Origin: an uncultured Methylococcaceae bacterium
GTDB lineage: Bacteria; Pseudomonadota; Gammaproteobacteria; Methylococcales; Methylomonadaceae
Reading direction: 5' to 3'
NCBI GenBank assembly: GCA_903839855.1
Contig: CAIMEB010000074.1
Location: 1-39,297, forward strand
DNA length: 39,297 nt
In this document: positions 24,442-29,257 of the stretch, piece by piece
Position numbering within the stretch: position 1 is the stretch's first letter
How the letters are laid out: every line of letters begins with the position of its first letter
Program-made: the position numbers and the translations under genes
Notes under the pieces: model-generated
Told to the model about the DNA's origin: nothing
Databases searched by the model: none
The model's input: the letters and a program-made list of their open reading frames with translations, nothing else

Positions 24442-27400
24442 ATGCTAAAAATCTCTGGTACCTCTGCTTTATCTGACTTTCGTATAAAAAAATTACTCGC
24501 TGAACTGGGTACAATTGAATCAAATACAACGACAGTTTCCACACAGTTTATTTACTTTGTCGATATTGAACAAAATTTTAACGATCAGCATAAAGCAGTC
24601 CTGATGCAATTATTAACTGATGCTCATCAGAACACTGCTGAACGGAATAACGAGGATATCTACGTTCAAACTTTCCTGGTTGTTCCAAGATCCGGCACAA
24701 CTTCTCCCTGGTCAAGTAAAGCAACTGAAATCGTACAGCGTTGTGGGCTATCTTCCGTCATACGTATCGAACGAGGCATAGAATACACACTAACCTTTAC
24801 AAAGCGGGTAAGTCATGCTGTTAAACTTAGACTATCCAACGCTTTACATGACCGGATGACCCAATCAGTTATCTTTGACGGTGCCGCGCCTGAATTGTTT
24901 GCAAAACATCCGGTAAAACCCTTAGTCAGTGTCAACATCATTGGAGAAGGCCGCCCTGCCCTAGTTACCGCCAATAGCGAACTGGGCATGGCTTTATCAG
25001 AAGATGAAATTGATTACTTAACCAACAGTTTTACGCAACTCGGTAGAAATCCAACCGATGTTGAGCTAATGATGTTTGCCCAGGCCAACTCAGAACATTG
25101 TCGCCATAAAATTTTTAATGCTGCTTGGACAATTGATGGCGTTGAACAGGCTCAGTCCTTGTTCAGCATGATTCGTAATACAGCCACTCAAAGCCCTGAA
25201 GGTATTTTATCGGCGTATCACGATAACGCTTCGGTTGCCGTAGGCTCTGAAGCACAGGTTTTTATTCGTAATGCACTCACCGGAGAATATGGTTATGTGC
25301 AGGAAGATGCGCACTTTTTAATGAAGGTCGAAACCCACAACCATCCCACAGCTATCTCACCTTTTCCCGGTGCAGCAACGGGTTCAGGCGGTGAAATTAG
25401 GGATGAAGGAGCCACGGGTCGAGGATCGTCCACTAAAGCAGGTCTGACTGGCTTTTCTGTGTCTCATTTAAAAATCCCTGAGTTTATACAACCGTGGGAA
25501 CAAGACAATGGTAAGCCTGAACGTATTGCTTCGGCGTTGGACATTATGCTCCAAGGGCCCTTAGGCGGTGCAGCTTTTAATAATGAATTTGGTCGTCCTA
25601 ACTTAGCCGGTTATTTCCGTAGTTTTGAGCAATCCGCACCCGGTGACTCCCCCAATGAATTCAAAGGTTATCACAAGCCAATTATGATTGCAGGTGGCAT
25701 GGGTAATATTCGCCCTATGCTAATTGACAAGCACCCTATTCCTGCGGGATCGTTAATTATCATCTTAGGCGGCCCAGCCATGTTAATTGGTTTGGGTGGT
25801 GGTGCGGCTTCCTCGCAAGCATCAGGCTCAAGCTCTGAAGATCTTGATTTTGCTTCAGTACAACGTGAAAACCCAGAAATGGAACGGCGTTGTCAGGAAG
25901 TTATCAATCATTGTAACTCGTTAGGAGAGAACACTCCGATTATCTCAATTCATGATATTGGTGCAGGTGGTTTATCGAATGCCGTTCCTGAAATTATCCA
26001 TGATTGTGATCGTGGTGGTCGCTTTGAATTACGCAATGTTAATATTGCAGATAAAGGCATGTCACCCATGCAAATCTGGTGTAATGAAGCACAAGAACGC
26101 TATGTTGTTGCCATCAAACCAGAATCCCTTGAGCTGTTCGCCTCTTTCTGTGAACGCGAACATTGTCTATATGCCGTTATTGGTGAAGCAACCGAAGAAG
26201 AACATTTATCTTTAAATGATAACCTGTTAAAAGCTAAGCCTGTTGATATTCCTATGTCTGTTTTATTTGGCAAGCCACCTAAAATGCATCGTCAGGCTCA
26301 ACATCAAGTGCCTGATACACAAAAACTGGACTTTACCGGCATTAAGCTTAAAGAAGCTATTCAACGGGTATTATCTTTTCCAGCCGTAGCTGATAAAAGC
26401 TTTTTAATTCACATTGGCGACCGTTCTGTTACCGGCCTGGTCGCGCGCGATCAACTCGTAGGCCCTTGGCAAGTGCCCGTTGCTGATGTGGCAGTGACCG
26501 CGTCAGGTTTTTATGCACTGACGGGTGAAGCAATGGCGATGGGTGAACGCACCCCACTTGCGGTTATTAATGCAGCCGCCTCTGGTCGTATGGCAATCGG
26601 TGAAGCAGTGACCAATATTGCCGCAGCACGAATAGAGTCGTTGGGTAAACTTAAAATTTCTGCTAACTGGATGGCCGCAGCCGGCTTTCAAGGTGAAGAT
26701 GCGGCACTCTATGATACGGTTAAAACCGTTGGTTTAGACTTATGTCCTGCTTTGGGTATTGCGATCCCGGTCGGAAAAGACTCCTTGTCGATGAAAACAG
26801 TTTGGCAAGACAATGGAGTTGAAAAAATCATGTCATCACCGTTATCATTAATTGTGACGGCTTTTGCGCCAGTTTTGGACGTTACACAAACACTAACACC
26901 GCAATTAAAATGGCTAGAGACTGAAGAAACCAGTCTGCTAATCATTGATTTAGGACAAGCTCGCTTAGGTGGATCAGTTTTAGCTCAGGTTTACAATCAA
27001 ATCGGACATATTGATGAATGTCCAAACTTGGAGAATGCTGACTTGTTAATTGGCTTCTTTAAAGCCATCCAGTCACTCAACAGTCAAAGAAAAATCCTCA
27101 GCTATCATGACCGTTCAGACGGCGGTGTTTTGGCAACGCTGGCGGAAATGATGTTTGCAAGTCGCCTAGGCATCAACTTAACACTGGATGCCTTAGGCAA
27201 CGATGTTTTATCGGCTTTATTTAATGAAGAATTAGGCGCGGTTATCCAAGTTCGCACCCATGATTATGACGCACTGTTCGCTGAACTAAAGTCCTTCGGT
27301 TTAGGCGATCATAGCCATCTAATCGGTTCAGTTACCCAAACACAACACCTCACGATTAACTATCAGGGAAGTCTTATTTATTCAGCAAGCCGCGCTGAAT

Positions 27401-28344
27401 TACAAACTTCCTGGTCTGAAGTCAGCTATAGAATGCAAGCTTTACGAGACAATCCAGACTGCGCAAAGCAACAATTTGAACGCATTACCGATGATAATGA
27501 CCCCGGTTTGTCTGCTTCTTTAACGTTTGATATTAATGATGATATTACCCTACCTTATGCAGAGACTCGCCCCAGAGTGGCTATCTTACGTGAGCAAGGT
27601 GTCAATGGTCATGTCGAAATGGCTGCCGCGTTTGATCGTGCTGGCTTTACCAGTATAGACGTACACATGACGGATATTATTCATGGTCGCGTCAGTCTAC
27701 TTGACTTTACTGGATTAGTGGCCTGCGGTGGTTTTTCTTATGGTGATGTACTCGGTGCTGGCGGTGGTTGGGCCAAATCCATACTGTTTAACCCGCGAGC
27801 TAGAGAAGAGTTTAGTGCTTTCTTCCAACGTCCAGATACGTTTGGTTTGGGCGTTTGTAACGGCTGTCAAATGATGTCCGGTTTAAAAGATATCATTCCA
27901 GGCGCTGAACAGTGGCCGCGCTTTATGCGTAACACCTCAGAACAGTTTGAGGCAAGAGTGGCGATGGTTGAAGTTAAAAAATCACCCTCTATCTTCTTTA
28001 CCGATATGGAAGGCTCTAAAATGCCAGTAGCCATTGCGCATGGTGAAGGTAGAGCCGAATTTAGTTTCGATCCTCAGCAAGCTTTTGATGCAGAAGCGGT
28101 CGCATTATGCTATGTTGATAACTATGGCTCTGCAACCACTGACTTCCCTGCAAATCCTAATGGCTCACCCTTTGGAATTACCGGTTTAACAACGCTTGAT
28201 GGTCGTTTTACCATTATGATGCCGCATCCTGAACGTTGTTTTAGATCAGTCCAAAACTCTTGGTATCCTGAGGACTGGAGTGATTATGGTGCGTGGATGA
28301 GAATGTTCAGAAACGCCAAAGTGTGGTCACAAAACAAAAACTGA
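24442..28344 (+). CDS. purL: Phosphoribosylformylglycinamidine synthase
   Basis: Large single-chain FGAR amidotransferase of purine synthesis, which uses glutamine and ATP to turn FGAR into FGAM. The N-terminal and two ATP-binding (AIRS-like) domains include [13 protein letters not shown] near residue 215, [21 protein letters not shown] near 299-319, and [16 protein letters not shown] near 510. The C-terminal glutaminase has the nucleophile in [11 protein letters not shown] (about 1136) and the His/Glu pair in PHPERCFR (about 1263). The 1300-residue length fits the long gammaproteobacterial form (E. coli 1295), not the split PurLQS. It lies 27 bases after bamC, in the place where E. coli has purC. 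Confidence 0.98.
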
Positions 28345-28386: not shown

Positions 28387-28836
28387 ATGATTTTAAATAG
28401 ACGTACCTACATTCAAAGATCTCTTGTGATACTTGTCATTATTACGATAATGACTATTCCTGATGTATTAATAGAGTTAATGGCTGAATTAGTCCATTTA
28501 ATTCTTGAGGTATTGGCAGAAGTTGCACATATCAGTTTTGAATGGATTGAGTCTATGCTTGATCATCTGATCGAACATGAATTACACACAGAGCTTCATG
28601 AAACACAGACCATTGTTTTTTACGTGATAGTGGCTATTTTAGCTGGATCACTCTATTTCTTGGCACGTCAAATGCCGCGACTTTATTTTTTCTTGCAAGA
28701 TAAAATACTCGTTTCCTGGACTTTTAATAAAGCCAGAGCAAAACTGTATTGGCATAGTCTATCTATCAATGAAAAAATAAAGTTGAGCTTAGTCACGTTA
28801 ATCGCGCTTTATATAGCTTCTTTCTTCTTTATGTAA
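28387..28836 (+). CDS. Small membrane protein with a Glu/His-striped helix, function unknown
   Basis: 149 residues, not recognised as a named family. Residues 12-29 are hydrophobic. Residues 30-72 form a long helix-like stretch in which Glu and His recur on one face: E30, E34, H37, E41, E45, H48, E52, E55, then H60, H64, H67 and H71. E34/H37/E41 and E45/H48/E52 form an exact 11-residue repeat. Two further membrane segments follow (about 75-95 and 131-149), with a basic loop between them (about 98-125). The polar stripe could bind metal or protons or drive helix packing; this is inference. It lies 42 bases after purL and 40 bases before the yajD-like gene, on the same strand. No strong Shine-Dalgarno is seen before the ATG. 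Confidence 0.7.
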   Translation: MILNRRTYIQRSLVILVIITIMTIPDVLIELMAELVHLILEVLAEVAHISFEWIESMLDHLIEHELHTELHETQTIVFYVIVAILAGSLYFLARQMPRLYFFLQDKILVSWTFNKARAKLYWHSLSINEKIKLSLVTLIALYIASFFFM

Positions 28837-28876: not shown

Positions 28877-29257
28877 ATGACACTAAAAAGAACAGTACCT
28901 AATAAAGATAAACTAAACCAAATTGTTACTGAAGCCAGACGCAATCAGGAATTGAGAGAACAATCTTATCGTGGTCAGGCGCTTAGACTTTATCCTTGGA
29001 TATGTGGTCGTTGCGCACGTGAATTTACCCATACTAATCTGACTGAATTGACTGTGCACCATAAAAATCACAATCACGATGACAACCCTTCTGATGGAAG
29101 CAACTGGGAGTTGCTTTGCCTTTATTGCCATGATAATGAACATTCTCGTTATGAAGAGACACGCTATGGCAGTGTCCAATCCAGCAAATCTAACACGAAT
29201 ACTGCAACTCACAATCCTTTTGCGGATCTAAAAAACTTATTGGGTACTAAAAAATAA
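28877..29257 (+). CDS. yajD: HNH-domain protein, YajD type
   Basis: 126-residue protein with an HNH endonuclease-like zinc fold. Paired Cys C43/C46 (CGRC) and C81/C84 (CLYC) would bind structural zinc, and the catalytic-type HNH core reads TVHHKNHNHDDNPSDGSNWELL (His 61-62 onwards). This exact motif pattern is that of E. coli YajD, whose biological role is unknown; being housekeeping-like and lacking a partner gene, it is unlikely to be a restriction or homing enzyme. It converges on rnhA with a 20-base gap and no terminator hairpin between. Confidence 0.85.
   Translation: MTLKRTVPNKDKLNQIVTEARRNQELREQSYRGQALRLYPWICGRCAREFTHTNLTELTVHHKNHNHDDNPSDGSNWELLCLYCHDNEHSRYEETRYGSVQSSKSNTNTATHNPFADLKNLLGTKK

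Follow-up and report, generated by a model that had tools for sequence, protein, structure and literature searches.

A previously unnamed multi-copy family of predicted small membrane proteins with an acidic/histidine stripe on a helix of variable length

Introduction

AcrZ, KdpF and EMRE are small membrane subunits of transporters. PilZ domains, which are found in membrane receptors, act in the cytosol, while SulP-carbonic anhydrase and DAB systems handle inorganic carbon. Hendecad coiled coils follow a 3-4-4 spacing, usually with a hydrophobic core. Here we describe a gene, labelled X in this analysis, at positions 28387-28836 of the window (the whole stretch of 39,297 nucleotides analysed, from an uncultured Methylococcaceae bacterium), along with its homologues.

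Judged by gene neighbourhood alone, X recalls AcrZ, KdpF and EMRE as a small membrane protein associated with diverse transporters, but it is set apart from their descriptions by three predicted transmembrane (TM) segments, a long acidic/His helix and many paralogues. Some family members resemble PilZ membrane receptors in that a PilZ domain (PF07238) lies N-terminal to X, as in 11 of 120 copies, whereas the window protein comprises the membrane part only, for which there is no Pfam match. Several X paralogues sit in SulP-carbonic anhydrase or DAB clusters; however, by Pfam scans X shows no homology to SulP, Proton_antipo_M or DabA, and the window copy lies outside such clusters. Finally, the polar positions of X follow the hendecad 3-4-4 spacing, with a peak at 98 degrees per residue, but these are acidic/His sites repeated on a hydrophobic helix, which is the reverse of the usual hydrophobic core. 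A literature search at the level of titles and the openings of abstracts turned up no published description of this family.

Results

Gene X and its genomic position

The predicted parts of X and the genes on either side of it are listed in Table 1. A same-strand purL lies less than 500 bases upstream in 27 of the 30 nearest X homologues, and yajD is downstream in 13 of these 30. Other ORFs near X (25.0-32.5 kb), which we take from their sequences to be rnhA-like, methyltransferase-like and LysM transglycosylase-like, complete this neighbourhood; no SulP, carbonic anhydrase or DabA adjoins X among the flanking ORFs of this interval. In one homologue (L067:6035-6646, on G474:C65), the X ORF opens in frame with a stretch that resembles the C-terminal part of PurL, as if this copy had moved together with a purL end. 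A promoter scan found three candidates, compared with 2.9 in shuffled sequences. Residues 106-149 (window 28703-28836), over TM3, have a weak match in PHROG to phrog_23420, a 'membrane protein' entry (E 9e-4).

Table 1. Coordinates of gene X, its parts and the adjacent genes in the window
Feature	Position	Strand	Basis and remarks
X, intact ORF	28387..28836	+	149 aa, ATG start; no Pfam or NCBIfam match
TM1, residues ~8-24	28408..28458	+	Hydrophobicity; low-confidence model helix 2-23
Amphipathic long helix with acidic/His stripe, residues 26-66	28462..28584	+	98-degree periodicity, stripe composition, low-confidence model helix 25-67
Repeat copy 1, E34-H37-E41	28486..28509	+	Sequence
Repeat copy 2, E45-H48-E52	28519..28542	+	Sequence, homologue comparison; E45 and H48 within length-variable stretch
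Conserved core E52-x2-E55-x3-D59-x3-E63	28540..28575	+	Counts over 163 homologues
TM2, residues ~75-95	28609..28671	+	Low-confidence model, conservation; conserved T73-Q74 just before
K/R-rich segment, residues ~96-126, assumed cytosolic	28672..28764	+	K/R content, conservation; conserved W122
TM3, residues ~127-148	28765..28830	+	Hydrophobicity; low-confidence model helix 127-148
purL	24442..28344	+	ORF list; immediately 5' of X, gap 42 bases
yajD (HNH nuclease)	28877..29257	+	NF008448 match; immediately 3' of X

A polar stripe on a hydrophobic helix

The initial annotation described an 11-residue repeat formed by E34/H37/E41 and E45/H48/E52, and exactly two E-x2-H-x3-E motifs are indeed present, at residues 34-41 and 45-52. 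Two such motifs spaced 11 residues apart appeared in 82 of 200,000 shuffles of residues 25-74, and any two motifs in 2,594 of 200,000, for a motif that was defined after having been seen. By a less post hoc measure, the six identical polar residues at lag 11, set against the best of lags 3-19, were reached by 434 of 5,000 shuffles. The lag-11 repeat on its own is therefore weak, and chance is not rejected for the lag alone. Polar residues between positions 26 and 63 peak at 98 degrees per residue, which corresponds to 11 residues per three turns. None of 5,000 shuffles matched this at any tested angle, which ruled out a chance origin of the polar stripe. The suggestion that E30, E55 and later Glu/His residues continue the polar face also held, as the pattern extends beyond the two named copies: E30, E41, E52 and E63 follow one another at intervals of 11 residues, and conservation is highest after the second copy, at E55, D59 and E63.

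Conservation of the stripe and of an acidic core

Homologues from all fetched loci provided 163 distinct sequences. For the stripe and length analyses, L152 (a false row) and L160 and L182 (true members whose domain was cut short in extraction) were left out, giving 160. At alignment-free offsets upstream of E52 (-22, -18, -15, -11, -7 and -4, counted inside the helix), 71% of residues across these 160 homologues are Asp, Glu or His (42% Asp/Glu and 29% His), with 22% hydrophobic residues, 5% Ser/Thr, 2.4% Asn/Gln and 0.3% Lys/Arg, while the positions between stripe sites are 90% hydrophobic. The 3-4-4 pattern of the window protein holds in these 160 homologues, and the 131 outside the direct near-relative loci have 36% Asp/Glu and 30% His at the stripe sites. 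Glu and His interchange at several of these sites; at offset -11, for example, 56 of the 160 sequences have Glu, 50 have His and 18 have Asp.

Free replacement of the Glu and His residues of the repeat was not seen for H37 (30/30), E41 (28/30) and E52 (30/30) in the 30 nearest homologues, whereas E34 (22/30), E45 (22/30) and H48 (10/30, with Asp in 12) do vary. Many homologues are altogether without the segment that holds E45-H48. Given this variation and absence, the repeat unit is a helix-length variant, with an invariant site downstream (E52, E55, D59 and E63). No variation was seen in this set of 30 at H37, E52, E55, D59, E63, T68, T73, Q74, V77, Y79 or K132. Across the 163 distinct sequences, E52 is found in 151, E55 in 145, Asp or Glu at 59 in 151, E63 in 139, Gln or Glu at 74 in 157 and W122 in 145. 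The spacing between E52 and E63 is 11 residues in 157 of the 163, and that between E63 and Q74 is 11 in 159. The part of the protein under the strongest constraint thus lies past the repeat, at E52, E55, D/E59 and E63, followed by Q74 and W122. The initial proposal that the charged residues have a job stands in part: the Glu/His face is under selection, as judged from 160 homologues, and may serve metal or proton handling or oligomer packing.

This conservation bears on whether X is an envelope metal-binding protein, whose stripe would use its His and carboxylate residues to hold Cu, Zn, Fe or Ca, with a role in transport, storage or sensing. Such a function would be compatible with the ExxH-like spacings of the window protein and with substitutions at stripe sites that are largely among Asp, Glu and His. 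However, residues at the strictly conserved core positions (52, 55, 59 and 63) are acidic rather than His (91% Asp/Glu and 0.9% His), the His sites are the variable ones, and no metal-handling neighbour recurs except FeoB, which two of 120 copies have on the opposite strand. Metal binding is an unlikely explanation.

Helix length varies in whole turns

The distance between D26 and E52 was 15 residues in 68 of the 160 sequences, 22 in 42, 26 in 45, 18 in three, and 11 and 33 in one each; L160 and L182, read by eye, have a distance of 22. All six lengths fall on the 3-4-4 series (0, 4, 7, 11, 15, 18, 22, 26, 29, 33). Given the extremes of 11 and 33, simple counting puts the chance that four different interior lengths all fall on this series at ~8 in 10,000 (5/5,985), a figure that treats lengths as independent draws and takes the alignment as correct. 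The window protein is of the 26-residue type; the stretch missing from shorter forms holds its second repeat copy. A tree constructed without the length columns indicated by parsimony that length changes at least 23 times. This tree contains all 163 rows, including the false L152 and the shortened L160 and L182, and has moderate support, with 59 of 160 inner branches open. In both L160 (4868-5428) and L182 (4286-4750), the stretch from the acidic core to the TQ motif is longer by ~13 residues. This counts against the whole-turn rule because 13 is not a whole-turn number. In both loci, the genes after X have counterparts in L078 that are TldD/PmbA-type. Across the family, the constant part is a short acidic cluster and the variable part is a D/E/H helix extension.

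Predicted topology and packing

The initial annotation of the window protein as a membrane protein was supported, and three TM segments are predicted. Some paralogues have PilZ fused at the N terminus, with PF07238 above cut-off in all three fusions scanned (L061, L064 and L065), and the loop after TM2 (offsets +44 to +75 from E52) contains 17.8% Lys/Arg, compared with 0.3% in the stripe. Based on the N-terminal PilZ fusion and the K/R-rich loop, we infer that the N terminus is inside, the acidic helix is periplasmic between TM1 and TM2, the loop is inside, and TM3 leads to a C terminus outside. The stripe helix (residues 26-66) would accordingly be on the periplasmic side. Its low Lys/Arg content would also be expected if the stripe simply faced solvent in the periplasm, given the positive-inside rule. 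An AlphaFold2 model from a three-sequence alignment featured helices at 2-23, 25-67, 72-95, 97-124 and 127-148 with low confidence (pLDDT 62.4, pTM 0.34). A Foldseek search of the PDB with this model of X gave no fold match (best E of 6.8), and PDB sequence searches gave no matches for A1 and a best E of 0.18 for A3.

Covariation analysis of 159 sequences (140 effective, with L210 also left out) identified the pairs 59-73, 58-77, 55-77 and 53-81, which hints that residues 53-59 pack antiparallel on residues 73-81, placing the core on TM2. Much of the covariation is likely to be noise, given 140 effective sequences and 62 of the 125 top pairs being at least 12 residues apart. It is possible that the stripe is a packing surface only, for an oligomer or a partner in helical assemblies or a complex scaffold, where acidic and His residues would hydrogen bond with each other and no ion would be handled. 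Whole-turn length variation and a 3-4-4 pattern are what helix packing needs, and the weak covariation between the core and TM2 is in line with this, but much of that signal is noise and the scarcity of Asn/Gln (2.4%) and Lys/Arg (0.3%) would be unusual for a neutral surface. We regard packing as the sole function of the stripe as somewhat unlikely.

Distribution of the X family

No known family had come to mind when the sequence was first annotated, which was borne out by database searches: the window protein had no NCBIfam match and no matching Pfam family at E values up to 5. When 65 family members were compared with Pfam, the best match was to Competence (PF03772; two members, E 1e-4) and the other 14 families were each matched by one member, while NCBIfam gave 11 families with one member each (best E 0.0029). 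X belongs to a previously unnamed, multi-copy family of predicted small inner-membrane proteins with three TM segments. Homologues were identified in 32 of 61 relatives (with the window's own genome counted). Within the order, a profile built on near relatives detected homologues in 196 of 301 genomes, and a broad profile did so in 190 of 251. Among the sampled genomes, X is confined to two families (f1 and f4) of one gammaproteobacterial order, where 35 of the 190 matching genomes belong to f4, and there are up to eight copies per genome (G615). Outside the order, there was no match among 369 and 274 sampled genomes of the class; the matches in each sample came from the window's genome and other members of the order. 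A sample of 299 genomes from the phylum gave two marginal matches besides the window's own, one with E 8.5e-4 (three stops) and one with E 9.2e-4. The latter (L152) was considered as a relative of X and dropped as an unrelated long ORF. A mobile or phage origin was rejected, as plasmids, phages and viral contigs gave no match, apart from the weak PHROG hit noted above.

An AMO/pMMO gene is present in 207 of 251 genomes of the order and two homologues come from uncultured Methylococcaceae bacteria, which indicates that the hosts of X include methanotrophs. Confinement to such an order could reflect a part in methane oxidation, such as a subunit of pMMO or of the intracytoplasmic membrane. However, among the 20 listed f1 genomes that lack X, the AMO/pMMO gene (PF02461) is present in 17, so X does not track this gene. 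In addition, other families of the order carry AMO/pMMO without a listed X, and no pMMO gene was found beside X among the proteins scanned. A pMMO partner was rejected on these patterns of presence and absence, and a part in methane oxidation is highly improbable.

Genomic neighbours of X paralogues

Neighbours were counted within three genes, on either strand, of 120 distinct copies with wide flanks. Labels correspond to phmmer matches to one representative each, most of which were identified by Pfam; the RND representative was named from its length and sequence, and PurL from its length, sequence and the window ORF list. The most frequent neighbours were SulP (17), outer-membrane efflux protein (OEP; 11), HlyD (10), response regulator (10) and PurL (9), followed by GGDEF/EAL type (DGC; 8), carbonic anhydrase (8), MFS, Usp, ABC and histidine kinase (5 each), DsbD (4), redoxin (3), RND (2) and FeoB (2, opposite strand). 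The neighbourhoods are diverse, including TldD/PmbA and autotransporter genes as well as DsbD and FeoB (on the other strand), and 103 of the 120 copies have no SulP within three genes. In L112, L120, L145 and L175, X lies between a DsbD-like gene and redoxin/cytochrome b561 genes, with the same order in three of the four and no redoxin match in L120.

Of 45 copies in 11 genomes, 12 have a SulP gene within 3 kb; 20,000 circular shifts gave 0.34 such copies on average and never more than 4. For this control, which covers the SulP neighbours, 73 match rows were merged to 66 genes, and the 11 genomes were picked after their contexts had been seen. SulP and carbonic anhydrase neighbours are found in several parts of the tree (seven changes), upstream of X in some cases and downstream in others. 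One same-strand run (L118:8075-17471) encodes carbonic anhydrase, Usp, SulP, X, Proton_antipo_M and DabA and is an inorganic-carbon cluster. X comes after a SulP protein in L070, L072 and L073, and Pfam analysis indicated that SulP is fused to a beta-carbonic anhydrase domain in L070 and L073. The gene for PEP carboxylase, an enzyme that uses bicarbonate, immediately precedes X in L161 and L184, and in L192 it lies two genes upstream.

On the tree, purL-linked copies are the nearest relatives of the window X, and the PilZ fusions form the neighbouring group. This proximity, along with GGDEF/EAL-type genes within three genes of 8 of the 120 copies, could reflect a c-di-GMP effector module, in which PilZ receptors would act through X in the membrane and free X copies would pair with separate PilZ or GGDEF/EAL proteins. 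However, PilZ is present in 11 of the 120 copies, only in long paralogues, and these are essentially one clade (two tree changes, one of which comes from a false row labelled by length), and the window protein has no PilZ domain. We consider a role of this kind to be improbable.

Discussion

Based on its sequence and gene context, we tentatively propose, with somewhat less than even confidence, that X is an accessory module or subunit of transport complexes, with ion handling by its titratable residues. Duplication would have brought the module next to a range of transport systems, several of which are related to inorganic carbon; of the other systems, MFS and RND transporters, like DAB, are usually proton-driven. 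X may dock on a transport complex as an accessory subunit, where the stripe on the periplasmic side would present a line of titratable residues to the partner and perhaps hold or pass protons or cations near the mouth of the transporter, with a helix length that is matched to that partner. The window copy follows purL and not a transporter gene. PilZ is found in its sister clade, and this copy may accordingly have a partner linked to signalling.

A bolder version, which we consider doubtful, is that X represents a new class of membrane module that acts as a surface relay for protons or cations, built from an acidic/His 3-4-4 helix that changes length by whole turns in evolution. Gene duplication would then have attached this relay to transporters of bicarbonate, to DAB pumps, to exporters driven by protons and to PilZ receptors within one lineage that includes methanotrophs.

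The X family is lineage-specific, reaches eight copies per genome, has no Pfam or NCBIfam entry and recurs beside genes for inorganic-carbon uptake. Its whole-turn length variation provides a natural series for studying how an ionisable membrane helix works. If X does tune such transporters, this would bear on CO2 and bicarbonate uptake by bacteria that include methane oxidisers.
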